A stretch of DNA of 64,000 bases, from assembly GCF_001638985.1 (NCBI RefSeq), contig NW_017265148.1, forward strand, positions 513,367 through 577,366, read 5' to 3'. How positions within the stretch are numbered: the stretch's first letter is position 1; each line of letters starts with the position of its first letter. The notes under the pieces were generated by a model, which had not been told where the DNA came from, made no database searches, and was given only the letters and a program-made list of their open reading frames with translations. Origin of the DNA: Phycomyces blakesleeanus NRRL 1555(-) (Eukaryota; Mucoromycota; Mucoromycetes; Mucorales; Phycomycetaceae). Made by a program: the position numbers and the translations under genes. Below, in pieces: positions 19,290 to 60,853 of this stretch.

Positions 19290-19920
19290 TGTTGTGAATG
19301 AGTATTGATTACTGCTGAATCTGAGAGTAAGACTGAAGGATAAAATAATATCCTCAGCTATTCCAGTCAAACGGATCTCCCTTTATGATATTATCTAATA
19401 CACAGATCATCATACACATAATTGATTATTTATTATTATCACCATGACATGGGATATACAAATACATATACATTATATATATGGCATCATTATATTTCAT
19501 CTACATATTTCTTTTATTATACAAATACTTAATTGAGAGACTACAACTACAACTATCTAATATTATGAAACATTACCCGAGTATCTGGGTCGGAATACTA
19601 AAATATTACCAATAGCATAAATGCTCTTCTTTACCAAAACTCTTGGACTGATCTGACTGGAGAAGTATCATATCAATTGGTCTTTCCGGATCTTTCCAGA
19701 AGAACAATACTCCTGGAAGATGACTCATCGTGATAAAGATTACTTAAGCACACACTGAATTACAAATTAGAAAAACATATAAATATCAGTAGATAGTTCC
19801 GTGTAGAAAGACAATCGAATTTTATATTTCTTTACTTTTCTTTTGAAATAAACAACCTACACAAGTTCTCACGAATTCTTTCGTCTATATTATATTTTGC
19901 TTTATTTTCTCCCCACAACA
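19290..19920 (+). repeat. 5' LTR, family A (631 bp)
   Basis: It starts with TG, ends with CA, and is identical by eye to 24989-25619. Related copies lie at 30902-31532 (solo, reversed) and 58349-58486 (fragment). Confidence 0.95.
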
Positions 19921-19939
19921 TTTTTTTTCGTGAACTACA

Positions 19940-22900: not shown

Positions 22901-24805
22901 CGTGATAAATATATCAGCTTTGTATCAACTTCCTTAAGCCCATCGCAGCGACGATGGAGCACAACTAAAAGAGAATTATATGCAGTCGTTTTGGCGCTTG
23001 AAAAATTCTGTCCATTTCTGTGGGGCCGACAGTTCACAATTTTTACTGATCATCGAGCACTCATTTATCTCCACACTCAAAAAATCGCTAATCCGATGAT
23101 GATTGGCTGGATTGAGACACTCCTTGACTTTGATTTTAAAGTGGTCCATATTCCTGGTTTGTTGAATAAACTACCTGATTTGCTAAGCCGCTTGTATCCT
23201 CCAGAGGATAGTGACAAGCTGGTGGAGGATGATGGATTGAGAAAAATCAGAACAAATGACTTACAAGCTAAAAACAGAGTTATTGTTCAAAAGAAAAAAT
23301 ATAGTAAAGACAGAGTGCTAAATGTACTTGCAACGCAACTCGTCGAAAATGCTTCAGAGTCGTCCGACTATATGTCACCTCCTGAAGAAAAGCGTAATGG
23401 CTTACTAAAAGAAGCACATTCGTTTGGTCACTTTGGAAGTCAAGCTATAGTGAATGATCTTCATTCACAAGGCTTACACTGGACTAATATATATGAAGAG
23501 GCTAAAGAGATTATTCGTTCTTGCCCTGAATGTCAGAAGCACAATATTAGCAAGAAAGGCTATCACCCATTGACTAATGTTGTAGCATTCCGACCATTTG
23601 ATCATATTGCAATTGACTTATGCGGTGAATTCCCTGTATCAGAGGATGGACACACGTACATGTTAGTTCTGGTTGATGTATGCTCCAAGTACATTATCTT
23701 GAGACCACTGCCAAACAAGAACTCAACAACAATAGCTAAAGCATTGATAAAGATTTTTGGAGATTATGGTTTTCCCAAAGTAATGCAAAGTGACAATGGT
23801 CTGGAATTTAGAAACTCTTTAATGTCAAGCCTATCTAAAGAGCTTGGGATTGATCGAAGATATTCGACAGCATATCACCCACAAGGAAATGGTATTGCCG
23901 AAGCCAGTGTAAAAATTGCAGAGAATACTGTACGTAAAATGATGAGAGCGAACAGCAATGACTGATGTCACTATCTACCGATTGTTCAGCTGTGTATCAA
24001 TAGACATATTCCTCAAAAAACACTAAGTGCGCCGTTTTCATTAATGTATGCTCGCAGAGTCAATGTGCCTGATGAGTATGGTGACAAAGATAAATACTCT
24101 CTTCCAAAAGCCACAGTTACAATTGATGAGCTAGAGAAGCAGATTGATCATATGAAAAATATTATATTCCCTGCCATTAACGAACGTGTGTTAAGGATTA
24201 ATGAGGAATTAAAAAAGAAATATGATCACAAAAATATCCTAATCGACATCCCCAAAGGAACACACGTTATGGTCAGATTACCACATCGATCAAATAAATT
24301 GGCACCTATTTATGAAGGTCCATATACAGTGGTTCGAAAGAATAAAGGAGGATCGTATGAGTTAAAGGATGAGCAAGGTGAATTGTTACACCAAAATTAT
24401 ACACCCTCAGAACTCAAGATGGTCACCATCGATGAATCAACAATTGAGAATGAGCTCTACAAAGTTGAAGACATTCGAGATCATCGTGGTACTGCTGGTC
24501 AACGAGAATATTTGGTCAAATGGGCTGGCTATGGCGAACGCGCTAATACATGGCAAAAGGCTGAAGACTTTACCGATTCCACAATTGTACAAAAATATTG
24601 GAAGAAAGTTAGAGAGTTGGAACGTTTAGAGAATGAGAGAGCTGAAGACTTGATTAACAAAAGTGCATCCTCAAAAAAGAAAATAGTTCACACTTCAAGA
24701 CTAAATGGTAAAAGTAACAATAACGATGAGCACAAGAAAAGAACACTTCCTACCACTTTGAGTAGAGAAGAAAGATTACACAAAAGAAGAGCAACAAAAA
24801 ATTAA
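19940..24805 (+). pseudogene. Gypsy gag-pol polyprotein with one in-frame TGA
   Basis: The Gag-like region occupies about residues 1-340, followed by Cys/His clusters (CSHHGKNPTHESSKC, CRRCGENYYHGHVC). Protease: MIDTGSSRTFI. Reverse transcriptase: FTTLDLSNAYHRF, with the catalytic box QNFVDDCIVA. RNase H: YVATDASLYGA, TDHRALIYL. Integrase: an HHCC zinc site (HSFGHFG...CPECQKH), then IAIDLCGEF, MQSDNGLEF and YHPQGNGIAEA as the DDE triad. The TGA at 23963-23965 replaces what is probably Trp; the same frame continues to 24805 with the integrase C-terminus and a chromodomain (YLVKWAGYGERANTWQ). It would make virus-like particles and integrate cDNA. Only this one stop separates it from an open frame. 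Confidence 0.95.
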
Positions 24806-24988
24806 AATAACAAAAAATGAACACGTAATCCACAAAGCTGAGTTTACAGTGTAGATCTCCATAAAGTACAAAAATTATGTGCATGATTGACTATAATAAA
24901 ATAAGCAATTGGCCAGACAATGAAATAGTAAATGAAATGTTTTATTGCCGAATCAACAAAAGGTATTGTTGAATCTGGTGGAGGATAA

Positions 24989-25619
24989 TGTTGTGAATGA
25001 GTATTGATTACTGCTGAATCTGAGAGTAAGACTGAAGGATAAAATAATATCCTCAGCTATTCCAGTCAAACGGATCTCCCTTTATGATATTATCTAATAC
25101 ACAGATCATCATACACATAATTGATTATTTATTATTATCACCATGACATGGGATATACAAATACATATACATTATATATATGGCATCATTATATTTCATC
25201 TACATATTTCTTTTATTATACAAATACTTAATTGAGAGACTACAACTACAACTATCTAATATTATGAAACATTACCCGAGTATCTGGGTCGGAATACTAA
25301 AATATTACCAATAGCATAAATGCTCTTCTTTACCAAAACTCTTGGACTGATCTGACTGGAGAAGTATCATATCAATTGGTCTTTCCGGATCTTTCCAGAA
25401 GAACAATACTCCTGGAAGATGACTCATCGTGATAAAGATTACTTAAGCACACACTGAATTACAAATTAGAAAAACATATAAATATCAGTAGATAGTTCCG
25501 TGTAGAAAGACAATCGAATTTTATATTTCTTTACTTTTCTTTTGAAATAAACAACCTACACAAGTTCTCACGAATTCTTTCGTCTATATTATATTTTGCT
25601 TTATTTTCTCCCCACAACA
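24989..25619 (+). repeat. 3' LTR, family A
   Basis: This is the identical partner of 19290-19920, offset by exactly 5699 bp throughout. The polypurine tract lies immediately upstream. Confidence 0.95.
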
Positions 25620-30901: not shown

Positions 30902-31532
30902 TGTTGTGGGGAGAAAATAAAGCAAAATACAATATAGACAAAAGAATTTGTGAGAACTTGTGTAGGTTGTTTATTTCAAAAGAAAAGTAAAGAATAATAA
31001 AATTCAATTCTTTTTCTACATGGAACTATCTACTGATATTTATATGTTTTTCTAATTTATAATTCAGTGTGTGCTTAAGTAATCTTTATCCCGATGAGTC
31101 ATCTTCCAGGAGTATTGTTCTTCAGGAAAGATTTGGAAAGACCAATTGATATGATACTTCTCCAGTCAGATCAGTCTGAGAGTTTTGATAAAGAAAAACA
31201 TTTATGCTATTAGTAATACTTTAGTATTCCGACCCAAATATTTGGGTAATGTTTCATAATATTAAATAGTTGTAGTTATAGTCTCTCAATTAAGTATTTG
31301 TAAAATAAAACAAAAATGTAGATGAAATATAATGATGTCATATATATAATATATATGTATTTGTATATCCCATGTCATGATGATAATAATAAATAATCAA
31401 TTATGCGTATGATGATCTGTGTATTAGATAATATAATAAAGGCAGATCCGTTTGACTGGAATAGCTGAGGATATTATTTTATTCTTCAGTCTTACTCTCA
31501 GATTCAGCAGTAATCAATACTCATTCACAACA
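30902..31532 (-). mobile_element. Solo LTR, family A
   Basis: This is a 631-bp copy of the family A LTR in reverse orientation, with scattered differences. The target duplication CTATT is present at 30897-30901 and 31533-31537, so it arose by LTR-LTR recombination after a full insertion. It sits between the Harbinger transposase end and the Myb-like gene. Confidence 0.9.
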
Positions 31533-31537
31533 CTATT

Positions 31538-35924: not shown

Positions 35925-36903
35925 TATTTAATGTCAGCGGACCAATTAGAATTTTTTTTACTTCTTTTCTTTTAAAAAAATATTACGTGTTTTTGTCTTC
36001 TTTTTCATTTTACTTTTCCACAAAATATTTATTATTTGCATGAGCTTCCATTTGTAAGATATTCCAGTCTGTTTATAGTATTTATAAAAGCAGAATTTTG
36101 CTTAAAGATCATAAGCTCAAAGGTATTTATGCTATCAAAGATTTTTATGTCATTGTGTTTATTAATCATACGATTCTAGTTTATAAATTAGTATTTCATC
36201 ATCTCGGTAAATCAATAAAGAGATAATAACTATATGTTTTTCTTACAAAGCAACAGAATACTAACTATTTACTCCTTACTTGCAGAGATTTGGCTGCCTT
36301 TTATTGCAAATGTCTTGGTATAGTCAAAGATAAAATTCTGTTAAATATATTTAACTAAGTTTAATTACTAATTATTAGCTCTTCTGCTTTAGCTTTTCTT
36401 GAAATTCAAATTTTTATGCTTTTTGAGTTTATTGGCATTTCTGGCACTGGGTCTCTTGGATTAGCTAGACATAGTAGTTTGCACCAATCCAATTGAGTAA
36501 TTTACAGGCATAAGTACAAACAGCTATACTACTAGTATTTCTAGTGGTATAGATATATTGGTGTGCTACTGCTTGTGGATTATATGGTCCAGTCTAGCTT
36601 TTTTTTAAGCCTAATTTTTTTTGAAAATAAAAAATAATTTTTTTACAACCCAAAATTATTTTAAACAAATTAAAAATTTGAATCATTCTTGAAATTGTGC
36701 AATACATTTTTTAATCAAAATCTATTGGCTGAGAGTAGTTCCCCCATCCCCCTACTTTTAAGCTCCCCAAAAAATAAATTTCCTGTTATGGGCAAAATTG
36801 GCCCCATATACAAGAATCCTTTTAAGGAATAATATTACACAAAAAAATCTGCTGTAGTGTATATCAAGCACTGAGTTTATTTTTGTAGTGTAAAAAAAAT
36901 ATA
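35925..36903. other. AT-rich spacer with a MITE-like segment at 36500-36720
   Basis: No gene is supported. At about 36490-36600 lies a short palindromic unit (TACTACTAGTATTTCTAGTGG, then TGTGGATTATATGGTCCAG). A related unit at 46100-46220 is in a similar arrangement, suggesting a dispersed miniature element. Confidence 0.4.
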
Positions 36904-37060
36904 CAATTGTTCCAACGCCAAAAGGCGGCTTTTTAAATGAAAAGGCAGTTAATAAATATTTCTAAAGGGCGGCTTTTCAATTCCCAAAAGGCGGCTTTTT
37001 TTAATTCAAGGGCGGTTTTCGATAATCCAAAGGGCGGTTTTTTTAGACCTTTTCTTTTTG
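36904..37060 (+). repeat. Left terminal GGCGG-motif array
   Basis: Five to six copies of (A)nGGCGG(C/T)TTTT, a short near-palindromic GC core in AT-rich DNA, recur every 15-50 bp from the end inward (36923, 36964, 36989, 37011, 37033). The mirror array lies at 45289-45445. A weaker block at about 38505-38550 (GGCGCCTTTT...ACTGCCCTTGAATTAAAAAG) is an inverted relative, so the transposase gene alone is bracketed by related ends. Confidence 0.7.
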
Positions 37061-37088
37061 TTAAACTTCGTTTTTTTTTCAAATAAAT

Positions 37089-38426
37089 ATGAAGACTACT
37101 TGCTTTTATTATGAAGACGGCCAGGGAAAATTGGTTGATGAGGAAGGAAACGATGCAATAGACTGGGTTGAGGAAGCTACTCCTTTTCACTTAAGAACTC
37201 TGACTCGTATCACAGAGTATTGTAGAAAGCAAGAGGAAGAGGGGGTTTCCTCTGAAGATTCCTTGGGAAATCTTGATGCTGATATGGAGGAAGTCATAGC
37301 TATAGTTAAGAAGCAGAAAAGACTTCATCACAAATACTCAAACGAGCAAAAGCTCACTTTTGTGTATTATAACCGAATTAAATTATTTAACACAGCTAAG
37401 TCAGGGTGCTTAGCAGGCGGCATAGCCAAGAGAACAGCACAGAAATGGGCCAAGAAACTCAAAGAGGATAAGGATTGGAACATATTTGAAAAACAAACCA
37501 ATTTGGTCAATAGACTAAAACCACAATTGGATGAGAGACATAAGGTTCACCTGTTAGAATGTTACAATAATTGTCCACAAGCACAGGTGCTTGATGCAAT
37601 GGAATCACTCACTCAAAAATTCTCTGATCTGACTGTGAAGAAAAGTACTGTTCACAACTTTCTTAAGAATGAGTGCAACCTTTCTTTTAAGAAGTTAACA
37701 CACTTGCCGGTTGCTAGAAATAATTCAGATAAGATCCAAGCTCGTAAAAATTGGGTCATCAAGTGGACTGCTACTGATATGAATTATTTGGAAAACTGTG
37801 TATTCGTGGACGAGTCTGCATTTGATAGAAACATGAGACCTCCTAGCGAATGGTCTGTAAAAGGAACACCCGCTATTACGACCACTCCAACCACTAAAGC
37901 TGTGTCTCATACTGTATTAGGCGCCATATCAACAAAGTTTGTTGTTGCTATAGAACTCCGTAATCCTCAAGAAGAAAGCTCTAAGAGAATTAAAATTGTT
38001 CACAGTGGTAGTAAAAGAAAAGCACCTACTGAAAAAAAGAAAAAATCTGGGGGTACAGAAACTGGTCACTACGTTAGGTTTCTCAAGAAGTGCATGGATG
38101 AAATGGATTTGTATCCAGAACTAAAAGGCCATTATATTGTGATGGACAATGTGCCCATACATACTGCTGACCGGATTGATGAAATGATTACTGAAAGAGG
38201 TTACAGAAGCATCTACCTCCCTCCTTATTCCCCCGAGCTCAACCCAATAGAGAATTTCTGGTCCATTGTCAAAAATAAGGTAAAACGAAGTTCGTTTAAA
38301 GATGCTGAAGATCTAGCCACTCGTATCGCTGAAGCTTGCAATAACATCCCTCCCGAGCATTTGAATGCGTTTGCTCAACACTCTGGTAATTGCTTTGATA
38401 TCTGCTTGCGCGGAGACCCTTTATAA
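37089..38426 (+). CDS. IS630-like DDE transposase, left-arm copy, intact
   Basis: 445 aa. An N-terminal acidic region (about 1-80) is followed by helix-turn-helix segments: AGGIAKRTAQKWAKKL near residues 112-127, and LTVKKSTVHNFLKNE near 186-200. The catalytic domain shows ENCVFVDESAFDRN (first Asp, about 242), GHYIVMDNVPIHTADR (second Asp, about 355) and YLPPYSPELNPIENFWS (Glu, about 390). These are the signatures of IS630/Tc1-mariner (DDE_3) enzymes, and all three catalytic residues are present. A KRKAPTEKKKKSGG insert may be a nuclear signal. The identical gene lies in the right arm. It would cut at CAGTC-type ends and insert at TA. Confidence 0.9.
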   Translation: MKTTCFYYEDGQGKLVDEEGNDAIDWVEEATPFHLRTLTRITEYCRKQEEEGVSSEDSLGNLDADMEEVIAIVKKQKRLHHKYSNEQKLTFVYYNRIKLFNTAKSGCLAGGIAKRTAQKWAKKLKEDKDWNIFEKQTNLVNRLKPQLDERHKVHLLECYNNCPQAQVLDAMESLTQKFSDLTVKKSTVHNFLKNECNLSFKKLTHLPVARNNSDKIQARKNWVIKWTATDMNYLENCVFVDESAFDRNMRPPSEWSVKGTPAITTTPTTKAVSHTVLGAISTKFVVAIELRNPQEESSKRIKIVHSGSKRKAPTEKKKKSGGTETGHYVRFLKKCMDEMDLYPELKGHYIVMDNVPIHTADRIDEMITERGYRSIYLPPYSPELNPIENFWSIVKNKVKRSSFKDAEDLATRIAEACNNIPPEHLNAFAQHSGNCFDICLRGDPL

Positions 38427-38821
38427 AGCTTTTTAATAAAGATATAACTATTTGATTCTAAAACAATAAAACAAACTTTGAAGTGAAAAACCGAAATTTG
38501 AAAAATTGAAAGGCGCCTTTTGGGTTTAAAAAAACTGCCCTTGAATTAAAAAGAGCCAATTGAACAGTTCTGGGCATCGGCAAAAGGCAAAGTGAAGTGC
38601 CACAAGCTTGAAGATAATTAAAAAGGACAGAAATTATGTGCGTTCTTGTTCTTTGTACACTTTTCACCCACCCTCCTCTTAAATCAAACCCATAATCAAA
38701 CCCATTTGGATCTGGATCTTCATGATCTGGATCTTCAATTTGGAAATTATAATTAAACGCCTTACAGCACTTATAATTTATTCCTATTATTGTTTTTACT
38801 TTTATTCTTTTTATATTTTCT
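38427..38821. promoter_or_regulatory. Intergenic region between the two palindrome genes
   Basis: This 395-bp stretch is the 3' region of the transposase and the promoter of the downstream gene. It holds the inverted GGCGCC/GCCCTTGAATT block (38505-38550), a direct repeat of CATAATCAAACCCA/ATCTGGATCTTC-type sequence near 38680-38740, and a T-rich leader just before 38822. No gene is supported; a minus-strand open frame here overlaps both genes and has no known features. Confidence 0.4.
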
Positions 38822-40339
38822 ATGAGACAACACAAGTCTTCTTTACAAACTTTAATAACTGCAGCCATGTTGACGGTACCAAAATCGAAATGCAAGCAAT
38901 GTCTTAAGCCCATTCATTCCACAAGAAATAAAATAAGGCTCTGTCAAGACTGTAGGAAAATACCAATGGAGAACCCGCAAGCCTTCAGTTTTGAAGAAGG
39001 TTCTGAGCAAGCTTTAGGCACGCAAGGTCAAACTGTTAGTCAAAGAAAAAGATCACATCATTTTGTACATTCTGTGGACTGTCAACCATTCAGCTTGGAG
39101 GTATTTGATTGCAATAAACGTACAAAGCTTTCAACAACGTTTGCTTTGATGACAAACGATTCTGCCCTTAGTCTTACTTCTTTGATTGATTTCCAAAATA
39201 ATATCACGTCTGGTATTTTTGACGGAAGGGTTTCTTTCTCATCAAATGATACAATCGAACCAGTGTTAAAAGACAGTGCTTGTATCTCTGCCAAGCTCGA
39301 AATGACTGTACGCACCTCTACTGTTCCAAAACTCTTGCAGGAGCTAGGGCCATATCAAGAAATTGATGCGATGGTACTAGACTTACTAAACTACGATTTC
39401 CGGCTCAGATCTGAATTGATTGAATTAATACCACCATTATTCTGCAGTGCATTGCTTCACGATAGCATCACTTTACTTATTATTACGTGCGAAGTGTACA
39501 GCCATCACTCTTCAGTTGATATACACTCCGAGTCAACTGAATCCTCTGTTCCCAGCGAATCCTCCAGATACAAGAATCACATGTCCTGTACTACATATGA
39601 AAAATCGGATGGTGGTGCTATGAAACTGAAGCTTATCATTGGAACAAAGACCGTCAACCTTTTGATTACTTGCTCTGCTGAAATATCAACTGAACCTAAA
39701 ATCAACATTGGACCTGGTGTAGAGTTTGGTCATGGTTCAATCACGGACTCAAATTGCAAAATCTACTTGATGAAATCAAAAGTTGAAGAATTTTTAAAAA
39801 TGTTTGAGACCTTCAAATTAAATCCTTTACACGTCAATATATCAAATTTGAGACAAATTACATCGAGTTTCAGCAAATGCTCATCTTATTTACTATGGAG
39901 ATCTACATTGCAAGAATTTGACAGTAGTATCTACTTGCTGGCAACAGTGTTCACTCTTTGTGACTTACCAAACAAAGATGGATATGGCGTTGAAGCAACA
40001 TCTGGTGCTAAACTTGGTTCTCAAATATTACAAATACTTGCAAAAGCGATATTAGTCAACAAAGGTGTCATCCAGCCCAGTGATTTCTATAACGTTTTAT
40101 TGGAGTATGAGAGTATAATGAAACAAAAATGCGATGTAAAAGAGTGGTTCTCGATCATTAAAGTATTGGATGGAATAACTGCAAGTCTAATTTCTAGTGA
40201 ATTGAGCGTACCCTCCTTCTGCAACAACAATGGTGGATCAGTCAGTGAAGTCGCCAATAAATTAAGCAGCTCAATTTCCACAGCAAATAATATGATTGCA
40301 AAAAATGTCAAGAAGAAGTTATTACAATTATACCAGTAG
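38822..40339 (+). CDS. 505-aa protein of unknown function, left-arm copy, intact
   Basis: I do not recognise this family. Near the N-terminus is a four-Cys zinc ribbon, CKQCLKPIHSTRNKIRLCQDC. The rest is alpha/beta-like, Ser/Leu-rich, with few charged runs and no transmembrane segment. A second Met at 38867 (AGCCATGTTG) is a better start by context and would remove 15 residues. It follows the transposase co-directionally, with about 395 bp between them. The frame is fully open and identical in both arms, so it has been maintained or was recently duplicated. A role as DNA-binding partner or target-selection factor of the transposase is inference only. Confidence 0.75.
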   Translation: MRQHKSSLQTLITAAMLTVPKSKCKQCLKPIHSTRNKIRLCQDCRKIPMENPQAFSFEEGSEQALGTQGQTVSQRKRSHHFVHSVDCQPFSLEVFDCNKRTKLSTTFALMTNDSALSLTSLIDFQNNITSGIFDGRVSFSSNDTIEPVLKDSACISAKLEMTVRTSTVPKLLQELGPYQEIDAMVLDLLNYDFRLRSELIELIPPLFCSALLHDSITLLIITCEVYSHHSSVDIHSESTESSVPSESSRYKNHMSCTTYEKSDGGAMKLKLIIGTKTVNLLITCSAEISTEPKINIGPGVEFGHGSITDSNCKIYLMKSKVEEFLKMFETFKLNPLHVNISNLRQITSSFSKCSSYLLWRSTLQEFDSSIYLLATVFTLCDLPNKDGYGVEATSGAKLGSQILQILAKAILVNKGVIQPSDFYNVLLEYESIMKQKCDVKEWFSIIKVLDGITASLISSELSVPSFCNNNGGSVSEVANKLSSSISTANNMIAKNVKKKLLQLYQ

Positions 40340-40873
40340 TCATTAAATGCATATTATATTAGTTAATAAAAAAAATAACGAGATTACTTTATTCCAGCCG
40401 TTATAACTTCCATTGAGCCTTTGACTGAAGGATAAACCACAATGCTTCATTTACCCCCATTAGTAAAATAGCATCAATTTATCCATTTTCAATACGTACA
40501 ACCCAATCATTTATACAATCGTCCACGTCATATGTTGATGCTTCTTGTCTCCACTGCACATTAGAATAAAAGGAAGAGTTCAATTACCCCAACGCTAAAA
40601 TATTATTTCCTTTGTCAACAACCAAACATATGTTTTCTTTTCACCATCATATCTCAGGGCCAACCTTTAATTGCAACCATTTATTAGCTCGCGAGCTCCA
40701 AATATTTGTAGTGTAAGACATTTAGTTTTTTACAATCGCAGTATAAGAAATAAGAATATCACGCTGAAGAAAAAAGCACTGTTTAAAAAGCACTAATTTC
40801 AAACAATAATGACCAGTCTTGAATAAAACAAGTGCCGGAGTACTAATTCACACACTCATGGCTACACTTGAAT
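40340..40873. other. Left-arm inner non-coding region
   Basis: No gene is seen. It contains GCTCGCGAGC (40688-40697), a perfect 10-bp palindrome, and a degenerate half unit of the adjacent minisatellite (AGTACTAATTCACACACTCATGG). It is mirrored in the right arm at about 41476-42009. Confidence 0.5.
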
Positions 40874-41123
40874 GAAATCAGTACTTGAGTACTGATTTCA
40901 CACAGTCACAGCTGCGCTCAAATGAAATCAGTACTTGAGTACCGATTTCACACATTCATGGCTGCGCTCAAATGAAATCAGTACTTGAGTACCGATTTCA
41001 CACATTCATGGCTGCGCTCAAATGAAATCAGTACTTGAGTACCGATTTCACACATTCACAGCTGCGCTCAAATGAAATCAGTACTTGAGTACCGATTTCA
41101 CACATTCACAGCTACGCTTGAAT
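40874..41123 (+). repeat. 50-bp minisatellite, 5 units (left arm)
   Basis: Units start at 40874, 40924, 40974, 41024 and 41074. Each unit holds a hairpin, GAAATCAGTACT then TG then AGTACYGATTTC, in which 12-bp arms pair fully when Y is T and with one mismatch when it is C. The hairpin is followed by ACACATTCAYRGCTGCGCTC-like sequence. The right arm has only two units. Confidence 0.9.
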
Positions 41124-41167
41124 AAAATACCATTGTTGATGAAACGAAGGCCGAAAATGTGATACAT

Positions 41168-41331
41168 ACCCACCCTTGGTATAAACTATGGTAGTTAATT
41201 AAGCAAATCCCACCCCTCAAAAAAAAATGAAAAAATGAAAATTATCTAGCTGCTTAGAAAGATATGAGGAGGAAAAGGGAAAAAATTTATTATTCATATA
41301 TATTCTTAAAATAAAGCATGGCTCGGAGAGC
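41168..41331. other. Unique 164-bp spacer at the palindrome centre
   Basis: This is the only part of the element not duplicated. It is AT-rich with a TTAATTAAG site and no open frame. The flanking arm ends read AAAATGTGATACAT and its inverse. Confidence 0.85.
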
Positions 41332-42009
41332 ATGTATCACATTTTCGGCCTTCGTTTCATCAACAATGGTATTTTATTCAAGCGTAGCTGTGAATGTGTG
41401 AAATCGGTACTCAAGTACTGATTTCATTTGAGCGCAGCTGTGACTGTGTGAAATCAGTACTCAAGTACTGATTTCATTCAAGTGTAGCCATGAGTGTGTG
41501 AATTAGTACTCCGGCACTTGTTTTATTCAAGACTGGTCATTATTGTTTGAAATTAGTGCTTTTTAAACAGTGCTTTTTTCTTCAGCGTGATATTCTTATT
41601 TCTTATACTGCGATTGTAAAAAACTAAATGTCTTACACTACAAATATTTGGAGCTCGCGAGCTAATAAATGGTTGCAATTAAAGGTTGGCCCTGAGATAT
41701 GATGGTGAAAAGAAAACATATGTTTGGTTGTTGACAAAGGAAATAATATTTTAGCGTTGGGGTAATTGAACTCTTCCTTTTATTCTAATGTGCAGTGGAG
41801 ACAAGAAGCATCAACATATGACGTGGACGATTGTATAAATGATTGGGTTGTACGTATTGAAAATGGATAAATTGATGCTATTTTACTAATGGGGGTAAAT
41901 GAAGCATTGTGGTTTATCCTTCAGTCAAAGGCTCAATGGAAGTTATAACGGCTGGAATAAAGTAATCTCGTTATTTTTTTTATTAACTAATATAATATGC
42001 ATTTAATGA
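41332..42009. repeat. Right-arm inner region with a two-unit minisatellite
   Basis: The inverse of the left inner region. The 50-bp hairpin units occur twice, at about 41400-41487, against five on the left. This accounts for the whole 150-bp length difference between the arms. No gene is seen. Confidence 0.85.
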
Positions 42010-43527
42010 CTACTGGTATAATTGTAATAACTTCTTCTTGACATTTTTTGCAATCATATTATTTGCTGTGGAAATTGAGCTGCTTAATTTATTGGCGACT
42101 TCACTGACTGATCCACCATTGTTGTTGCAGAAGGAGGGTACGCTCAATTCACTAGAAATTAGACTTGCAGTTATTCCATCCAATACTTTAATGATCGAGA
42201 ACCACTCTTTTACATCGCATTTTTGTTTCATTATACTCTCATACTCCAATAAAACGTTATAGAAATCACTGGGCTGGATGACACCTTTGTTGACTAATAT
42301 CGCTTTTGCAAGTATTTGTAATATTTGAGAACCAAGTTTAGCACCAGATGTTGCTTCAACGCCATATCCATCTTTGTTTGGTAAGTCACAAAGAGTGAAC
42401 ACTGTTGCCAGCAAGTAGATACTACTGTCAAATTCTTGCAATGTAGATCTCCATAGTAAATAAGATGAGCATTTGCTGAAACTCGATGTAATTTGTCTCA
42501 AATTTGATATATTGACGTGTAAAGGATTTAATTTGAAGGTCTCAAACATTTTTAAAAATTCTTCAACTTTTGATTTCATCAAGTAGATTTTGCAATTTGA
42601 GTCCGTGATTGAACCATGACCAAACTCTACACCAGGTCCAATGTTGATTTTAGGTTCAGTTGATATTTCAGCAGAGCAAGTAATCAAAAGGTTGACGGTC
42701 TTTGTTCCAATGATAAGCTTCAGTTTCATAGCACCACCATCCGATTTTTCATATGTAGTACAGGACATGTGATTCTTGTATCTGGAGGATTCGCTGGGAA
42801 CAGAGGATTCAGTTGACTCGGAGTGTATATCAACTGAAGAGTGATGGCTGTACACTTCGCACGTAATAATAAGTAAAGTGATGCTATCGTGAAGCAATGC
42901 ACTGCAGAATAATGGTGGTATTAATTCAATCAATTCAGATCTGAGCCGGAAATCGTAGTTTAGTAAGTCTAGTACCATCGCATCAATTTCTTGATATGGC
43001 CCTAGCTCCTGCAAGAGTTTTGGAACAGTAGAGGTGCGTACAGTCATTTCGAGCTTGGCAGAGATACAAGCACTGTCTTTTAACACTGGTTCGATTGTAT
43101 CATTTGATGAGAAAGAAACCCTTCCGTCAAAAATACCAGACGTGATATTATTTTGGAAATCAATCAAAGAAGTAAGACTAAGGGCAGAATCGTTTGTCAT
43201 CAAAGCAAACGTTGTTGAAAGCTTTGTACGTTTATTGCAATCAAATACCTCCAAGCTGAATGGTTGACAGTCCACAGAATGTACAAAATGATGTGATCTT
43301 TTTCTTTGACTAACAGTTTGACCTTGCGTGCCTAAAGCTTGCTCAGAACCTTCTTCAAAACTGAAGGCTTGCGGGTTCTCCATTGGTATTTTCCTACAGT
43401 CTTGACAGAGCCTTATTTTATTTCTTGTGGAATGAATGGGCTTAAGACATTGCTTGCATTTCGATTTTGGTACCGTCAACATGGCTGCAGTTATTAAAGT
43501 TTGTAAAGAAGACTTGTGTTGTCTCAT
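42010..43527 (-). CDS. 505-aa protein of unknown function, right-arm copy, intact
   Basis: The translation is identical to 38822-40339, including the CKQC...CQDC zinc ribbon. The coordinates are exact mirrors (sum 82349). The preferred alternative start is at 43482. The two copies are convergent toward the centre, so a read-through transcript would form a long hairpin RNA. Confidence 0.75.
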   Translation of the reverse strand: MRQHKSSLQTLITAAMLTVPKSKCKQCLKPIHSTRNKIRLCQDCRKIPMENPQAFSFEEGSEQALGTQGQTVSQRKRSHHFVHSVDCQPFSLEVFDCNKRTKLSTTFALMTNDSALSLTSLIDFQNNITSGIFDGRVSFSSNDTIEPVLKDSACISAKLEMTVRTSTVPKLLQELGPYQEIDAMVLDLLNYDFRLRSELIELIPPLFCSALLHDSITLLIITCEVYSHHSSVDIHSESTESSVPSESSRYKNHMSCTTYEKSDGGAMKLKLIIGTKTVNLLITCSAEISTEPKINIGPGVEFGHGSITDSNCKIYLMKSKVEEFLKMFETFKLNPLHVNISNLRQITSSFSKCSSYLLWRSTLQEFDSSIYLLATVFTLCDLPNKDGYGVEATSGAKLGSQILQILAKAILVNKGVIQPSDFYNVLLEYESIMKQKCDVKEWFSIIKVLDGITASLISSELSVPSFCNNNGGSVSEVANKLSSSISTANNMIAKNVKKKLLQLYQ

Positions 43528-43922
43528 AGAAAATATAAAAAGAATAAAAGTAAAAACAATAATAGGAATAAATTATAAGTGCTGTAAGGCGTTTAATTAT
43601 AATTTCCAAATTGAAGATCCAGATCATGAAGATCCAGATCCAAATGGGTTTGATTATGGGTTTGATTTAAGAGGAGGGTGGGTGAAAAGTGTACAAAGAA
43701 CAAGAACGCACATAATTTCTGTCCTTTTTAATTATCTTCAAGCTTGTGGCACTTCACTTTGCCTTTTGCCGATGCCCAGAACTGTTCAATTGGCTCTTTT
43801 TAATTCAAGGGCAGTTTTTTTAAACCCAAAAGGCGCCTTTCAATTTTTCAAATTTCGGTTTTTCACTTCAAAGTTTGTTTTATTGTTTTAGAATCAAATA
43901 GTTATATCTTTATTAAAAAGCT

Positions 43923-45260
43923 TTATAAAGGGTCTCCGCGCAAGCAGATATCAAAGCAATTACCAGAGTGTTGAGCAAACGCATTCAAATGCTCGGGAGG
44001 GATGTTATTGCAAGCTTCAGCGATACGAGTGGCTAGATCTTCAGCATCTTTAAACGAACTTCGTTTTACCTTATTTTTGACAATGGACCAGAAATTCTCT
44101 ATTGGGTTGAGCTCGGGGGAATAAGGAGGGAGGTAGATGCTTCTGTAACCTCTTTCAGTAATCATTTCATCAATCCGGTCAGCAGTATGTATGGGCACAT
44201 TGTCCATCACAATATAATGGCCTTTTAGTTCTGGATACAAATCCATTTCATCCATGCACTTCTTGAGAAACCTAACGTAGTGACCAGTTTCTGTACCCCC
44301 AGATTTTTTCTTTTTTTCAGTAGGTGCTTTTCTTTTACTACCACTGTGAACAATTTTAATTCTCTTAGAGCTTTCTTCTTGAGGATTACGGAGTTCTATA
44401 GCAACAACAAACTTTGTTGATATGGCGCCTAATACAGTATGAGACACAGCTTTAGTGGTTGGAGTGGTCGTAATAGCGGGTGTTCCTTTTACAGACCATT
44501 CGCTAGGAGGTCTCATGTTTCTATCAAATGCAGACTCGTCCACGAATACACAGTTTTCCAAATAATTCATATCAGTAGCAGTCCACTTGATGACCCAATT
44601 TTTACGAGCTTGGATCTTATCTGAATTATTTCTAGCAACCGGCAAGTGTGTTAACTTCTTAAAAGAAAGGTTGCACTCATTCTTAAGAAAGTTGTGAACA
44701 GTACTTTTCTTCACAGTCAGATCAGAGAATTTTTGAGTGAGTGATTCCATTGCATCAAGCACCTGTGCTTGTGGACAATTATTGTAACATTCTAACAGGT
44801 GAACCTTATGTCTCTCATCCAATTGTGGTTTTAGTCTATTGACCAAATTGGTTTGTTTTTCAAATATGTTCCAATCCTTATCCTCTTTGAGTTTCTTGGC
44901 CCATTTCTGTGCTGTTCTCTTGGCTATGCCGCCTGCTAAGCACCCTGACTTAGCTGTGTTAAATAATTTAATTCGGTTATAATACACAAAAGTGAGCTTT
45001 TGCTCGTTTGAGTATTTGTGATGAAGTCTTTTCTGCTTCTTAACTATAGCTATGACTTCCTCCATATCAGCATCAAGATTTCCCAAGGAATCTTCAGAGG
45101 AAACCCCCTCTTCCTCTTGCTTTCTACAATACTCTGTGATACGAGTCAGAGTTCTTAAGTGAAAAGGAGTAGCTTCCTCAACCCAGTCTATTGCATCGTT
45201 TCCTTCCTCATCAACCAATTTTCCCTGGCCGTCTTCATAATAAAAGCAAGTAGTCTTCAT
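43923..45260 (-). CDS. IS630-like DDE transposase, right-arm copy, intact
   Basis: Identical to the 37089-38426 protein, with FVDESAF, VMDNVPIHT and PYSPELNPIENF all present. Having two intact identical copies contrasts with the decay of every other DNA-transposon gene in the window and suggests recent insertion or ongoing arm-to-arm gene conversion. Confidence 0.9.
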   Translation of the reverse strand: MKTTCFYYEDGQGKLVDEEGNDAIDWVEEATPFHLRTLTRITEYCRKQEEEGVSSEDSLGNLDADMEEVIAIVKKQKRLHHKYSNEQKLTFVYYNRIKLFNTAKSGCLAGGIAKRTAQKWAKKLKEDKDWNIFEKQTNLVNRLKPQLDERHKVHLLECYNNCPQAQVLDAMESLTQKFSDLTVKKSTVHNFLKNECNLSFKKLTHLPVARNNSDKIQARKNWVIKWTATDMNYLENCVFVDESAFDRNMRPPSEWSVKGTPAITTTPTTKAVSHTVLGAISTKFVVAIELRNPQEESSKRIKIVHSGSKRKAPTEKKKKSGGTETGHYVRFLKKCMDEMDLYPELKGHYIVMDNVPIHTADRIDEMITERGYRSIYLPPYSPELNPIENFWSIVKNKVKRSSFKDAEDLATRIAEACNNIPPEHLNAFAQHSGNCFDICLRGDPL

Positions 45261-45288
45261 ATTTATTTGAAAAAAAAACGAAGTTTAA

Positions 45289-45445
45289 CAAAAAGAAAAG
45301 GTCTAAAAAAACCGCCCTTTGGATTATCGAAAACCGCCCTTGAATTAAAAAAAGCCGCCTTTTGGGAATTGAAAAGCCGCCCTTTAGAAATATTTATTAA
45401 CTGCCTTTTCATTTAAAAAGCCGCCTTTTGGCGTTGGAACGACTG
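45289..45445 (-). repeat. Right terminal GGCGG-motif array
   Basis: This mirrors 36904-37060. The outermost five bases read GACTG, against CAATT at the left end, so the left TIR start is mutated at two transition sites relative to a consensus CAGTC. Confidence 0.7.
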
Positions 45446-45450
45446 TAGTA

Positions 45451-45811
45451 TAGTCAAAGCTCAATATAGTAATATGGATGGTGAACAGAAATTTTATAAC
45501 TATCACTATATTGAGCATGTTTTTTTCTTACTCCATGCATTACTTAATGATATTTCTAATGCTGCTGTGAGTGACTACTGTTTTCTAATAGGATTCATAG
45601 TATTTTGTCTAAGAAAGTGAGTTTGCTTTAAAGTGCTAAATAAAATATATACTACATTTATTTTTTATAGTATACAAATAAACTCAGAGCTCAATATAGT
45701 GATACTAGTGGATTCAAATTTTATCACTATCACTATAGCAAAAAATAGTGATAATAAGCAGGCACAGGCCCAAATTTTCCAGACAATTATCACTATATTG
45801 AGCTTTGACTG
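45451..45811. mobile_element. Pogo-like miniature element (MITE)
   Basis: Inverted ends AGTCAAAGCTCAATATAGT (45452-45470) and its inverse (45792-45810) are flanked by TA (45449-45450 and 45812-45813). The first base is T at the left and G (complement C) at the right, fitting CAGTC ends. Internal inverted stretches, including a 56-bp arm at about 45597-45652 that matches 45813-45868, show a composite history. It lies 5 bp outside the palindromic element. There is no coding capacity. Confidence 0.65.
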
Positions 45812-46696
45812 TATATATTTTATTTAGAATTTTAAAGCAAGCCCAGTTTCTTAGACAAAATACTATGAATTCTACGCCACCAGAGAAATTTCTTATATAA
45901 TCATAAACCCAAAAGAGTTTAGTGAATCAGAGTTAATTTTATTTCCTTTTATGAATTTAATAATTTTTGCAATAAATACTGGTTGAAAAAATATCACAGA
46001 TTTAAAAACACGTTTTTGCAAATATTAAAAATAGTTCAAAAAATAGGTTTTTAATTTTGGTTTATTTTGGATTGCAAAAAAATAAAAAAATAAAATACTA
46101 GACTGGGCCATGTAATCCGCAGCAGTAGCATACTAGCAAACTGATACTACTGGTTAAAACAATAGTATGGCTGCTAGCATCAATGCCTGTGGATTATGTG
46201 GTCAATATATAGTAAGCTAATATATCTAGCTACTCCAAGAGAAAACCAGTGTCATGGATGACATAAAAACCAAAGAGCTTGAAGACTTGAGTGTCAATAA
46301 ACTTGAAGACATGCATGCCAAGAGACTCTAAGAGAAGAAAAGCAATTAGTAATCATATTTAAAATACTTTTGTCTAAAGATGCTTACGTTTGAGATTCTG
46401 CCAAGTCATTTATGATTATAAATAGCTGAATACCTACAAGTAAGAAGAGGAAACATTTAGTATTCTATTGTTTTATAGGCAGAGTATATAGTTATTGCTT
46501 CATTACTCATTTAGCCACATAATAAAAAAAACTAATGTATAAACTGGATTGGTATGATTAATAAACATATTGACATATAAAACTAATTTAATAGCACAAA
46601 TACCTTTGAAGTGGGAGTATGTAGAGATGATGTTGTTTTCATAGAGGCTAAAAACATATTAGAATACCTTATAAATAAAAACATGTAAAAACAACC
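45812..46696. other. AT-rich spacer with MITE-like palindromic unit at 46100-46220
   Basis: No gene is supported. It contains CTAGACTGGGCCATGTAATC and, about 100 bp later, CCTGTGGATTATGTGGTC. This is an inverted pair also seen near 36500-36600. Confidence 0.4.
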
Positions 46697-47229
46697 TGTT
46701 GTGATAGTTGAAGTTGAAGAAGTTTTTAAGAGGAAGAATTGAAGATTTAAGATTAGGAACGAAGATTCGTGAGAACTTGTGTAGGTTTTGTTTATTGAGA
46801 AAAGATTTTGTATCAAAGTTTGACCAGGTTCCTATACTGAACTACTACTGCTATTTATATTATTTTGGATCAGGAAAATTATATGACTGGGGTCAGGTAA
46901 TCGATCCTATCTGAGCCTTAATCAGAGCAACGTGATCTTGGGATAATTAATGTATGATTAATTATATAAATGTGTATAGTCCCAATGAAGTATTAACATC
47001 GAAAGTAAATGTGTTTATGAGTTATAATTATGCTTATAATAATCCACTGATGTATCCCATATTATGGTGATATCATCATATGAAATATAATCACTATCAT
47101 GCATGCTAAACCTGTGTGTTAAATAATAAAGTAATCGGTAGACACCTTTGACTGGAATAGCTGAGGCCTTATATTATTTCCTTCAGACTTATTCTCAAAT
47201 ACAGCAGTAGTCAATACTCATTTACAACA
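46697..47229 (-). repeat. LTR of family B, reversed, without target duplication
   Basis: 533 bp, the reverse complement of the solo LTR at 49076-49607. The flanks are CAACC and GCATG, so they do not match. It abuts a 5'-truncated gypsy pol read in the opposite orientation, so a rearrangement or deletion joined two unrelated elements here. Confidence 0.85.
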
Positions 47230-49075: not shown

Positions 49076-49607
49076 TGTTGTAAATGAGTATTGACTACTG
49101 CTGTAATTGAGAATAAGTCTGAAGGAAATAATATAAGGCCTCAGCTATTCCAGTCAAAGGTGTCTACCGATTACTTTATTATTTAACACACAGGTTTAGC
49201 ATGCATGATAGTGATTATATTTCATATGATGATATCACCATAATATGGGATACATCAGTGGACTATTATAAGCATAATTATAACTCATAAACACATTTAC
49301 TTTCGATGTTAATACTTCATTGGGACTACACACATTTATATAATTAATCATACATTAATTATCCCAAGATCACGTTGCTCTGATTAAGGCTCAGATAGGA
49401 TCGATTACCTGACCCCAGTCATATAATTTTCCCAATCCAAAACAATATAAATAGCAGTAGTAGTTCAGTGTAGGAACCTGGTCAAACTTTGATACAAAAT
49501 CTTTCTCAATAAACAAAACCTACACAAGTTCTCACGAATCTTCGTTCCTAATTTCAAATCTTGAATTCTTCCTCTTAAAAACTTCTTCAACTTCAACCAC
49601 CACAACA
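49076..49607 (+). mobile_element. Solo LTR, family B, inside the left MULE TIR
   Basis: 532 bp, TGTTGTAAATG...CACAACA, with the duplication ACGGG at 49071-49075 and 49608-49612. Removing it restores a TIR that matches the right one (GACAAGACRACRGGACAA). Confidence 0.95.
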
Positions 49608-54160: not shown

Positions 54161-55515
54161 CACCTGGCTTAGGGTGAAATTGACTTACTTCCAACTCCGC
54201 TAAAATCAAAGAAGTACACCTCTGTTTTTCAAGGTTAAATAAGTTCTCAAAGACATGATCTTTAAAGACAAAAAATGAATGGAAGATTTTGTAATATGTG
54301 TTGCTTATTTATATTAAAAATTGATGGAGGTTTAATAGTTAATAGCTCCTCCATGCTTCTTCCTAACTAATATCATACGATCTTTAATGCTCAGACAAAA
54401 CTTCACACAAGTACTTGCTGTGATTTCTGCCCACTCCTCCAACAAAGCAACGTCCAGTTCTTTTAGCGTGGTAGGCTGGGGTCTTTTATCTCTAACCTTG
54501 TTATCAAGGTAGCTCCACATATTCTCAATTGGATTGAGATCTGGACTTTTTGCAGGCCATGGTAAGATAGCCACATCGTTTCTTTTTTTCCACTGTTCCG
54601 CCAACTTGCTCTTATGTGGTTTGGCATTGTCTTCTTGGAGAAGGTAGGTGGTGGTGTCCTTGTCAGGAAGGGCAGCAAGAAATGGGAGATAGTTGTCCCT
54701 CAGTGTCTGGACATACATTTCTTTTGTCATGTAGTCATCTAATATAACTAGTGGGCCAACACCTCCTGCCCAAATACATCCCCAAACTGATACTGAACCA
54801 CCCAACCCTTGCACTGCTGGTACCAGACAGTCATTGTCATACTTCTCATGTGGTTGGCGCCAAACATATTGCTGTCCACCTTTCTGAAAAAGGGTGAATC
54901 TGGACTCATCACTTCAGATTACTGATGTCCATTCATCATTCCAATTTTTTTGCTCCCTAACCCATTGCAAGCGTGCCTTCTTATGTGCTTCATCTAGGTA
55001 AGGCTTGGCTACAGCAACACAAGAGCGAAGGTCCATATCGTGCAGATATTTGCATACTGTTGCTTGACTGATTGAGATGTCATGCATCTCTTTAACACTG
55101 TGCATGATGGTAGCTAATGTGTCGCGTCTATTTTTTTTGCGGTGAACTTCAAATAACGAATTGCCCATGGTGATAGCTTCTTGGAGGCCCTAGGATGCTC
55201 CTTCTCAGTGCACATCTTCTTTGTCTCGTATTTTTTAATTATACAATAAACAGTTGATTGGGGTATGCCTTCTGCATGTGAAATCTCATAGGAGCTACGT
55301 CCTTCTTTATATCTTCCAATAATCATTCCTTTTTCGAAATCTGTTGTCTTATAATATGAGTTGGTAGTTTTAGCTTTATTGTTCTTTGGCATTGTGATTT
55401 GTTTTATTAGAGAGATTACAGAATTAAAATAAAAAGAAAATAGAGGATGGTCTTCTTGCATAGAAAGAAGTCATGGCGGAGTTGGAAGTAAGTCAATTTC
55501 ACCCTAAGCCAGGTG
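54161..55515 (-). mobile_element. Tc1-type transposon, 1355 bp
   Basis: Inverted ends of about 40 bp, starting CACCTGGCTTAGGGTGAAAT and continuing TGACTTACTTCCAACTCCGC, lie at 54161 and 55515. TA flanks both ends (54159-54160 and 55516-55517). One transposase gene occupies the minus strand. Confidence 0.95.
54332..55392 (-). pseudogene. Tc1/mariner transposase, one frameshift and one TGA
   Basis: It starts at 55392 (MPKNNKAKTTN). A bipartite HTH N-terminus (EGRSSYEISHAEGIPQSTVY) is followed by a frameshift near 55140 and an ISISQATVCKYLHDM helix. The catalytic domain has SDESRF (Asp), YLLQEDNAKPHKS (Asp) and WPAKSPDLNPIENMWSYL (Glu), the DD34E plan of Tc1. The TGA at 54914-54916 directly precedes SDESRF, where Trp is usual in the family (VIWSDES). 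These are the only two defects seen. Confidence 0.9.
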
Positions 55516-58486: not shown

Positions 58487-60853
58487 GCTGCTTTACCCTT
58501 GACCAAAACAAATTTGTTTCAGAAAATTAGGAGAAGAATAAAAACAAAAATAATGAGAAGTCAAATTGTTATAATAAGAAATAAAAATAATATAAATAAA
58601 ATATAAATTAAAATATAAAATTAGAATTAGGAGTTTGAAACTTTGTGACTGATTTAAAAGGTTGAAATCGATTGAAAAAGAGACTAGCACTGCAGCTGAT
58701 AAAAGTCACAACTCACTTAATCATCTAATCTGACATGTGATGTGTTAGGTTTGTTGTAGATTATAATGGATCACTTGGCAAAAAAAATATAATGATAATA
58801 GAATAGAACAGAATATGGATACAGTAAAAGATGGTAAGCAGCAATAGTTGACAGGTAAGAAAAGAGAGAACAACCAATAGAATCGTTGTTAAAAGCGAGA
58901 GAGAGGGAAAGATGTATGAAAAGAGAATGACAAAACAGAAAAGTAATAATTGACGAGGAGACCAAAACCAACAAACAATCTTTCTAAAACCAAGGAACTA
59001 ATATGTTATGTTGCAAGATGATATAAATTACAAAGAGAAGAAAACAAGAAAAAAGATACTGAAACTGGATCAAAGGATAATGGATAATATTTTATTGAAT
59101 AAAATTGCTTCTCTTTTATAAACAAAGAGATTTACAGTTGATAATAGAAGTTTAGAAAAATAAAGATAGTAAAAATAGAATGATGAATAATTGATAAGGC
59201 AAGAATAAAATATATGAATAAAAATATAGTAAAAATATAACAATAAAAGTACTGATATTGGCAAGATGAATTGTGTGCATTGTAGAAAAGAAATGTTACT
59301 AGCATGGATGACCATAATTTTGAATGAGTACAATGTGGACAAATATGGTAATAAGGGAAAAGGAAAAATTATTGTGTGTTGAAGAAACAGGGAATGGAAA
59401 TGAGATTTTTCCTGTGCATAGAAAAATTATCCTCTTACCACCAAGGGCACAGCACCACATCAACAAACAATTGACGTCAGCCCCTCAAAACTGAGACGAC
59501 ATGTCACAACAAACCACTGGACAAACCCACCTAGCAGACTGACCTTCTGGTACCGGACACCATGACATGGCCAAAAGCTGGAGTTGCTCACAACACACAT
59601 GACATATGATGCATGTGTTGCTTATATTTGTGATAAATGTTGACAGGTAATATATTATCACTGCTTTTTGAGGTTTGTATGAGTTCATAGATGTGAAATA
59701 AACTCTCTTTTCCACAAGAGAGAAAAAGACAAACTCAAAAGAAAATGTAGAATTAAAGATAATAAAAGCAATAAGAGAAAAATAAGAGAAAAGCAGTACT
59801 ATTGATCCATCTCGATAGACTTGACTCAATATACTTGGATAATCAAATAAGTAAAATATCAACAGCATTAAATATTAAGAGAACTTGTTTTCAGAAAAAA
59901 GACAAACAAAAAGCAATGTTAATTAAATGCAAGTATTGCGGTATTTATAGTTTGCAATTGACTTGTTGAATAATTAAATAAATAAAATTATTATAAAAAA
60001 ATAGTAAAAGTTGTATAATTGATGATCTATTAAATGTGATTTGTTGTTTACTATCATTAAGTACAAATAAAATAAAATAATTATTAAGTCATAATCATGA
60101 AGATGATTATGCCTGTAAGAAAATATAATAATATTAATTCTAGGTTGATTTGTTCAGTTAAATATAGTGAGAAAATAACATATAATATGTGGTTGCGTGA
60201 AGTTATCATTAACAAGATGATGCTTTTTTATTATACTTATTGGTGTTTTGCTTTCGAATAGAAAAATTGCTTTCTATTCAGCCTTGGCCACTGTCAGAAA
60301 ATAAAAAACAAATAGAATAGAATTTTTCTACAATCACAAAGAATTCTGCAACATTGCCGCACTGCCGGACAACCAAAATTTTGTTAAGTGCTGACCATTT
60401 TTACAACACTCTGTGTCAACAACTGTCACGTGTGGTATGTAACTGTGAGTAGAAGATGTACAAGAAAAGATAATTGTATATAAAAAGAGAAATTGAAAAG
60501 AGAAATTGAGGGTTTGAGTTTGATATCGGATAAATTAAGATGATAAAATAGCCTCTTTGTTACTAAATAGATCAGTTAAAGAAATTAAAAGGGAAACTAA
60601 CACTAAGATAAGAATATAAATAATTTGAATGATCAGAGAAATAGTTAAACTAAAAGAAGTGAAGTAAATAATACTAATTCTAAAGAGTTAACTATAAGAA
60701 AAAAATATTTAATAGAGTAAAAGATTTAGCTAAATGGAAATTAACTATGGTAAATTTACTAAGAGATAAATAAAAGAGGAATGAGACAAAATAATAAAAT
60801 AAAAGAGGATGGTCAATCTTTCACAAAGACTTGACAGAAAAATAAATAAAATG
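58487..60853. repeat. AT-rich degenerate repeat region, no gene
   Basis: 58510-58695 is a diverged direct copy of 62848-63048 (both end TTGAAATCGATTGAAAAAG, then GRGACT). Unique low-complexity AT-rich DNA fills the rest. The open frames here are Leu/Phe/Tyr-rich translations of AT-rich sequence and not credible genes. Confidence 0.55.

Follow-up and report, generated by a model that had tools for sequence, protein, structure and literature searches.

How does a fungal genome come to hold a palindrome of 8.5 kb that carries the same two genes in each arm, and did this structure reach its site as one mobile unit? The question is raised by positions 36,904 to 45,445 of a 64,000-nucleotide stretch of Phycomyces blakesleeanus NRRL 1555(-) (assembly GCF_001638985.1, contig NW_017265148.1, positions 513,367 to 577,366), which is called the window in the following. 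An earlier note, made from the letters of this stretch, had described the locus as a Tc1/IS630-type transposon with two inverse arms (position sum 82349), a 164-bp spacer, minisatellites of unequal length and TA flanks, and had proposed a distinct, foldback-like architecture. According to the analysis given here, the palindrome is very probably a foldback-like two-gene transposon of the IS630-Tc1-mariner group, whose terminal inverted repeats (TIRs) have grown inwards over both genes and whose arms are kept alike by arm-to-arm copying.

Structure and insertion site of the palindrome

Both arms were compared base by base. On the mirror axis with the sum 82349, positions 36902-40978 pair with 41371-45447, and 8 mismatches were found in 4,077 positions. 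Six of these fall into the minisatellite (40959-40974). Outside of it, the sole arm differences are 36906 and 36908, i.e. the third and the fifth base of the left terminus; the 4,050 bp from 36909 to 40958 show no mismatch to the opposite arm. The inner part of the arms follows a second axis with the sum 82499. This shift arises because the 50-bp units are more numerous on the left than on the right; the offset of 150 corresponds to three units. Here, pairing is perfect from 41079 to 41167, the arms end at 41167 and 41332, and a centre of exactly 164 nt (41168-41331) remains unpaired. Part of the centre filler is similar to repeats elsewhere (72-79%). The alignment thus reproduced the inverse arms, the spacer and the unequal minisatellites of the earlier note. 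A perfect inverted repeat of 4 kb is far beyond chance. However, the exact identity of the arms in the window deserves less trust than their architecture, because the assembly has gaps in two related elements (C3 and L035, see below) and because related arms include a probable mosaic. The architecture has two features of foldback-like elements: about 8.4 of the 8.5 kb are arm, which means that very long TIRs make up most of the element, and the inner part of both TIRs contains a tandem repeat, the 50-bp minisatellite. All features are listed in Table 1.

Table 1. Features of the palindrome and its flanks (window coordinates) and partner genes in the spacers of related palindromes
Feature	Position	Strand	Remarks
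Complete palindromic IS630/Tc1-type element	36904-45445	.	8,542 bp
Left arm	36904-41167	+	
Right arm	41332-45445	-	mirror copy
Left TA of target-site duplication	36902-36903	.	paralogous empty site in L060-L062
Right TA of target-site duplication	45446-45447	.	
Terminal and subterminal repeats	36904-37045	+	CAATTGTTCC here, CAGTCGTTCC at opposite end; GGCGG..TTTT motif repeated
DD34E transposase, left copy	37089-38426	+	445 amino acids (aa); D241, D353, E388
DD34E transposase, right copy	43923-45260	-	intact open reading frame (ORF)
Partner gene, left copy	38822-40339	+	505-aa ORF; probable start 38867, 490 aa
Partner gene, right copy	42010-43527	-	intact ORF
50-bp minisatellite, left	40871-41118	+	5.0 units
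50-bp minisatellite, right	41371-41511	-	2.8 units
Centre filler	41139-41362	.	small insert with ~29-bp inverted ends; includes the 164 unpaired nt
Flanking miniature inverted-repeat transposable element (MITE), copy M2	45449-45813	.	right flank of palindrome
Spacer partner genes, families B and C	C43:304379-306177; C8:767189-768986; C20:423801-425474; C4:2415777-2417329		

The assignment to IS630-Tc1-mariner is based on the transposase, the ends and the target site. The transposase matches the Pfam family DDE_3 (6e-26), and its triad has 34 residues between the last two members, which is the DD34E signature of the group. Ends that start with CAGT are typical of IS630-Tc1-mariner. The right end of the window element reads CAGTCG, as do both ends of its closest relative C3, whereas the left end of the window element deviates (CAATTG). 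Directly behind the transposase, at 38509-38557, a further, internal copy of the subterminal motif is found in inverted orientation.

The target site could be reconstructed from the MITE into which the palindrome has been inserted. This MITE (M1, an inverted copy) is split into the parts 36860-36898 and 45811-45874, which are interrupted by the palindrome and the MITE copy M2. Three uninterrupted copies (L060, L061 and L062) read through the site as GTAGTATATATTTTATTTAG. At the same site the window reads TA, palindrome, TA, GTA, and then continues with the MITE copy M2. Therefore, a single TA, duplicated on insertion, accommodates the palindrome in its full length of 8,542 bp. The TA flanks, the Tc1/IS630-type termini and the search for empty TA sites proposed in the earlier note have thus all found support, although the empty site is a paralogous one.

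These data also bear on the idea that two single-arm elements were inserted separately in inverted orientation, or that one insertion was followed by an inverted duplication in place. The motif copy at 38509-38557 speaks for it, as it may represent the former inner end of a simple ancestral element. However, the unit as a whole has a single TA target, its arms meet at the same base, and C3 has the same layout in other flanks, which makes the idea highly unlikely. Two independent insertions were rejected on the grounds of the one TA target and the identical layout of C3 elsewhere.

C3 is a close palindromic copy at C3:338949-349855, with TA and CAGTCG at both ends and flanks without similarity to the window. 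The left arms of the two elements differ at 89 of 4,236 positions. Their arms are shared up to ATTGTTGA and diverge afterwards, and the centre inserts are different. The C3 centre (C3:343341-344908; L007, L008) contains a 340-aa ORF, which resembles gag only in its appearance and is flanked by two inverted copies of a repeat similar to long terminal repeats (LTRs; TG...CA). For this LTR-like repeat 43 matches were reported in the genome, including these two copies, and a 286-bp stretch with the LTR is 100% alike on both sides of the centre. Since an LTR retrotransposon would carry direct LTRs, probably one LTR was mirrored by arm copying. The right arm of C3, as assembled, is of C3 type in its outer ~300 columns and is then identical to the window arm up to the minisatellite beside a gap of 100 N. 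Across the gap, an inner right-arm stub is again of C3 type; compared with the left arm of C3, it shows 0 differences in the first 418 columns and 5 in the next 187. It is therefore probable that the C3 right arm (C3:345524-349857; L007/L008), a mosaic with a duplicated inner stub, is misassembled.

Could the assembler have made or copied the palindrome of the window, or its second arm, as well? The N gaps and the mosaic arm of related copies would fit this explanation. On the other hand, both arms reach a TA with CAGT-type termini and have different flanks, the copy numbers of the minisatellite are unequal, the centre is continuous, and two further palindromes (C20 and C21p) retain scattered differences between their arms. 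We consider an assembly artefact of this kind extremely improbable. A chimera due to a missed adapter, which according to the earlier note would lack a unique spacer, TA flanks and unequal minisatellites, was rejected as well. The proposal of the earlier note that a foldback-like element was moved as a unit, rather than created during sequencing, agrees with the precise insertion into TA, the empty site, the occurrence of C3 in unrelated flanks and the palindromic relatives described below.

Genes and palindromic relatives

As the earlier note had stated, each arm carries an intact IS630-like transposase and a second intact ORF of 505 aa. The product of the latter is probably a protein of 490 aa that starts at Met16 (38867), because the left arm of C3 has ACG in place of the upstream ATG and because the homologue P0001 begins at Met16. 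The partner protein has no Pfam family match, only weak matches were found among PDB sequences (best E 0.042), and an AlphaFold2 model was uninformative (mean predicted local distance difference test score, pLDDT, 33.1). Between the window and C3, the non-synonymous and synonymous divergence (dN and dS) amounts to 0.0215 and 0.0240 for the transposase and to 0.0141 and 0.0395 for the partner.

Apart from the four family-A copies, i.e. those of the window and C3, the partner matches 10 loci of the genome; in five of these (C21x, L021, L022, L023 and L024) a transposase sequence lies within the fetched locus. Proteins of Mucor, Rhizopus and Mycotypha include relatives of the partner that are 74-89% identical to parts of the query, and a 40% relative is present in Rhizopus arrhizus. 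The transposase has a 100% match over 73% of its length in P. blakesleeanus NRRL 1555(-) itself and a match in Rhizopus delemar (85% over 68%). The matches in other species may result from horizontal spread. Two partner fragments of Mucor mucedo, P0004 and P0129, both stem from a 316,816-base contig, possibly the same one, and possibly represent two palindrome arms.

Among 96 transposase entries of the genome, pairs with scores within 2% and a distance of at most 8 kb comprised 8 inverted and 0 direct ones. Of the pairs of equal score that are 8-15 kb apart, one was inverted and one direct, and pairs of unequal score occurred in both orientations. A general habit of the host to invert repeats was considered as the cause and rejected. 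A control with Mutator-like elements (MULEs) contained no pair within 2% score at up to 8 kb and two inverted pairs at 9-10 kb, which were formed by weak entries of about 34 bits. This control is coarser than the list of transposases: of 166 matches, not all of which were listed, 109 were typed, selected by eye for a high score or a close neighbour, and they match a 99-position domain. A control with hAT elements was uninformative, as no signal arose even in the 14 control genomes.

Inspection of the sequences confirmed twelve palindromes: window, C3, C43, C8a, C4a, C29a, C8b, C20, C21p, C18, C30 and L035. It did not include the pairs at C6 (13.8 kb apart) and C4:2810477/2814610, and the sisters L029 and C10 were covered with flanks of 1.5 kb only. 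With the exception of L035, the transposase or its remnants are present in both arms (11 palindromes). In L035, 787 N cover most of one arm, of which the outer 340 bp and the inner 110 bp match the other arm. TA and CAGT-type ends on both sides were found in nine palindromes (window, C3, C43, C8a, C20, C4a, L035, C30 and C21p), with two deviating ends, one CAAT (window left) and one CTGT (C30 left). C29a, C18, C8b and L022 (the last with arms of 436 bp) are palindromic, but no clear pair of TA and CAGT ends was found in them. In C21p (C21:749932-756379; L064, L066), the mirror similarity continues for ~40 bp beyond the TA and CAGT ends into both flanks. Simple relatives exist as well: L045, L046 and L048 have TIRs of ~90-125 bp that flank one transposase. 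The genome search proposed in the earlier note thus yielded the palindromic copy C3 and further palindromic relatives, and the other copies are not all single-armed. Its claim of a foldback-like architecture is supported, with the correction that several families of this genome have the same design.

The palindromes differ in the placement of their genes. Only in family A, which consists of the window and C3, do the arms of the 12 palindromes contain both genes. In 8 of the 12, the spacer contains one gene of partner type. In families B (C43 and C8a) and C (C20, C4a and L035), the arms contain the transposase and the spacer contains one partner; the partners of these two families are homologues. 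They have finger-like Cys/His residues followed by an RPD..GEVK stretch like that of PD-(D/E)XK nucleases, as judged by eye only; the C4a partner gives a weak C2H2 finger match below the Pfam cut-off. A third partner type is common to C30 (C30:221674-223241) and C21p (C21:752502-753920) and has no Pfam match above the cut-off. The spacer of C29a contains relatives of the window partner, which were found with a profile against all ORFs (E 4.8e-4 in the first round, 3.5e-25 after one iteration). No partner was recognised in the spacers of C18 and C8b. Partner genes thus recur alongside this group of transposases. As there are three partner types without detectable mutual similarity, their sequences suggest that the partner provides an accessory function that was gained repeatedly.

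In a tree of 37 transposase entries, palindromic and apparently single copies are interleaved. Furthermore, the transposase faces outside in C43, C8a and C8b and faces the centre in window, C3, C20, C4a and C29a. Both observations call for two or more origins of the palindromic form, or else for inversions of the transposase gene.

Other repeats surround the palindrome. An older inverted pair (36117-36606 and 46089-46609; 67%) brackets it, such that the palindrome and its MITEs are nested inside another repeat with inverted parts. A repeat of ~530 bp has three copies (46697-47229, 49076-49607 and 60853-61388), two of which are inverted at 97.6%. The LTR retrotransposon at 19290-25619 contains reverse transcriptase, integrase and a chromodomain ORF; it looks young, because the two LTRs of 631 bp show 100% identity and the pol ORF spans 1,341 aa. 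A related LTR-like repeat (94%) lies inverted at 30902-31536. As to the statement of the earlier note that all other DNA-transposon genes around the palindrome are broken, a mere sample of them comprised transposase-like fragments (5973-6536 and 54491-54694) and a 342-aa Transposase_21 ORF (15002-16030).

Likeness of arms within and between elements

For pairs of related elements, site patterns were scored in the order L1 R1 L2 R2 (left and right arm of each element), and gap columns were dropped throughout. In family A, the C3 right arm was replaced by its inner stub from column 300 on and the minisatellite was dropped, which left 641 columns. Of these, 11 were xxoo and 2 were xooo, where the left arm of the window alone differs. 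In family B, for which columns 150-1700 were used, 60 sites were xxoo and 2 were xoxx (the right arm of C43 alone differs), and no cross pattern occurred. Differences within the elements of this family are located in the outer ~260 columns and at the inner end. For family C, only C20 and C4a were counted, without L035; 1,231 columns contained 243 element-specific and 13 arm-specific sites, 2 sites with more than two bases and 0 cross patterns. Within these elements, the arms differ at 9 of 1,529 and 7 of 1,430 positions, compared to 251 of 1,231 between them. In each of the three families tested, arms are therefore closer to each other within than between elements, as expected for arm-to-arm concerted evolution. 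For family C, this pattern cannot be explained by misplaced reads alone, because reads that are 20% apart would not be expected to be merged; moreover, the assembly has retained scattered arm differences in C20 and C21p. The simplest reading of the likeness of arms within elements is copying from arm to arm.

A competing explanation is that palindromes form anew: single-arm two-gene elements would undergo inverted duplication repeatedly, for example by template switch in gap repair, and identity of the arms would merely indicate a recent origin. The interleaving of palindromes with apparent singles on the transposase tree speaks for this explanation, as does the orientation of the transposase, which implies that the palindromes arose at least twice or that the gene was inverted. 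What argues against it is the common design of related palindromes. The two elements of family B share their spacer and the junction of arm and spacer; their spacers show 73 differences in 1,876 aligned positions (about 3.9%), which is comparable to the divergence of the arms between elements (~4% in arms and spacer alike). Arms and spacer therefore share one ancestor. Likewise, the three elements of family C have the same design with homologous spacers. Independent origins would require the same junction repeatedly, and the apparent single L035 turned out to be a palindrome with an assembly gap. On balance, repeated formation is an unlikely explanation.

For a transposon kept palindromic by arm-to-arm copying, the following mechanism can be envisaged. 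The transposase would pair the two outer ends, where the repeated GGCGG motifs may serve as binding sites, and the whole palindrome would be moved by cut-and-paste. The arms would be kept alike by copying, more likely through host gene conversion between paired arms than through gap repair or fold-back synthesis coupled to transposition. A process that is independent of the element's own transposase is favoured because the broken elements C43 and C8a, whose transposase stops are listed alike in both arms, also have matching arms. Copying beyond the old edge of the TIR would lengthen the arms, which could account for the stage of families B and C, with the transposase in the arms, and the stage of family A, with both genes. 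The remaining short centre would be filled by a different insert in each copy.

In a variant of this mechanism, the likeness of the arms would be renewed with each transposition, e.g. by self-templated synthesis of an arm, instead of by host conversion in place. The youngest-looking copy has nearly perfect arms and the insert near the C3 centre is mirrored, both of which would be compatible with such a renewal. Against it stand the matching arms of elements with broken transposases, though these could have been mobilised in trans. We regard this variant as possible but doubtful.

Several observations weigh against the interpretation as a mobile palindrome with continuously matched arms. The assembly mishandles arms of this kind, as seen from the C3 mosaic beside the 100-N gap with its duplicated inner end and from the 787 N of L035, and a shared consensus may have inflated the identity of arms within elements. 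The comparison in family A was limited to 641 columns, as the remainder of the C3 right arm is probably misassembled and was excluded. At its positions 3 and 5, the left terminus of the window element deviates from the remaining three ends of family A. One direct transposase pair of equal score exists at a distance of 12 kb, and L030 is one-armed. The divergence of the transposase from that of C3 looks neutral, with little sign of constraint since the split. Finally, no movement was seen, only copies at different sites.

Comparison with known systems and implications

Growth of TIRs is known from Galileo, a Drosophila element of the P superfamily. Its transposase is of P-type. The TIRs of Galileo are described to lengthen by taking in internal sequence; the recruitment of more than 500 bp of the transposase ORF was called so far unique to Galileo; a transposable element inserted in one TIR can be transferred to the other; the target-site duplication has 7-8 bp; and no putatively functional copy was found in the genome studied (PMC4168063). 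Galileo is likewise foldback-like, and the transfer of an element between TIRs resembles the mirrored LTR of the C3 centre. In contrast, each of the Phycomyces arms holds a whole transposase and a second gene, and the element is of IS630/Tc1-type, with a DD34E DDE_3 transposase and TA duplication instead of a P-type transposase and 7-8 bp. The Bari elements belong to the Tc1-mariner superfamily and are described with long TIRs of roughly 250 nt and a central transposase gene (PMC4877112). They resemble the palindrome in superfamily and in having long TIRs; the Phycomyces arms, however, exceed 4 kb and contain both genes. Tc4 of Caenorhabditis elegans is a foldback-like Tc element whose TIRs make up most of its length. 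To our knowledge, the usual Tc4 arms lack a complete transposase gene.

Tetris elements have long modular TIRs with tandem repeats and copies without conserved ORFs, and their authors suggest an affiliation with the Mutator superfamily from target-site duplications of 8-10 bp (PMC4079207). The long TIRs with tandem repeats are a common trait, whereas the absence of conserved ORFs and the size of the duplication set Tetris apart. In the Phycomyces element, a Pfam scan gave no MULE domain, and the duplication is TA. Finally, the arms of primate Y palindromes are kept alike by arm-to-arm conversion. They are similar in this respect but are not mobile elements. Among titles and abstract openings of the literature, no architecture with complete genes in both arms was noticed for Phycomyces or Tc1/mariner, which is a weak indication, as only part of the matches was listed.

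With the Phycomyces palindrome, the growth of TIRs described for Galileo now includes a case from IS630/Tc1 that covers a complete gene set. Tentatively, one may envisage a class of self-mirroring two-gene IS630/Tc1 transposons that spans the Mucorales, in which arm copying is a standing process that preserves the likeness of the two gene copies, inserts are dragged into both arms, short TIRs turn into palindromes stepwise, and three types of partner perhaps aid at the ends or in copying. Apparently complete elements of IS630/Tc1-type exhibit graded steps, from the transposase in the arms to both genes in the arms, and the growth of terminal repeats can therefore be studied as a process. Where the two arms of an element have substitutions in common, copying from one arm to the other can be tested directly in a mobile element. 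Note that such palindromes break assemblies and are easily missed. Arms of more than 4 kb should also give rise to hairpins, double-strand breaks and double-stranded RNA. As RNA interference is known in these fungi, this potential raises the question of how such palindromes persist.

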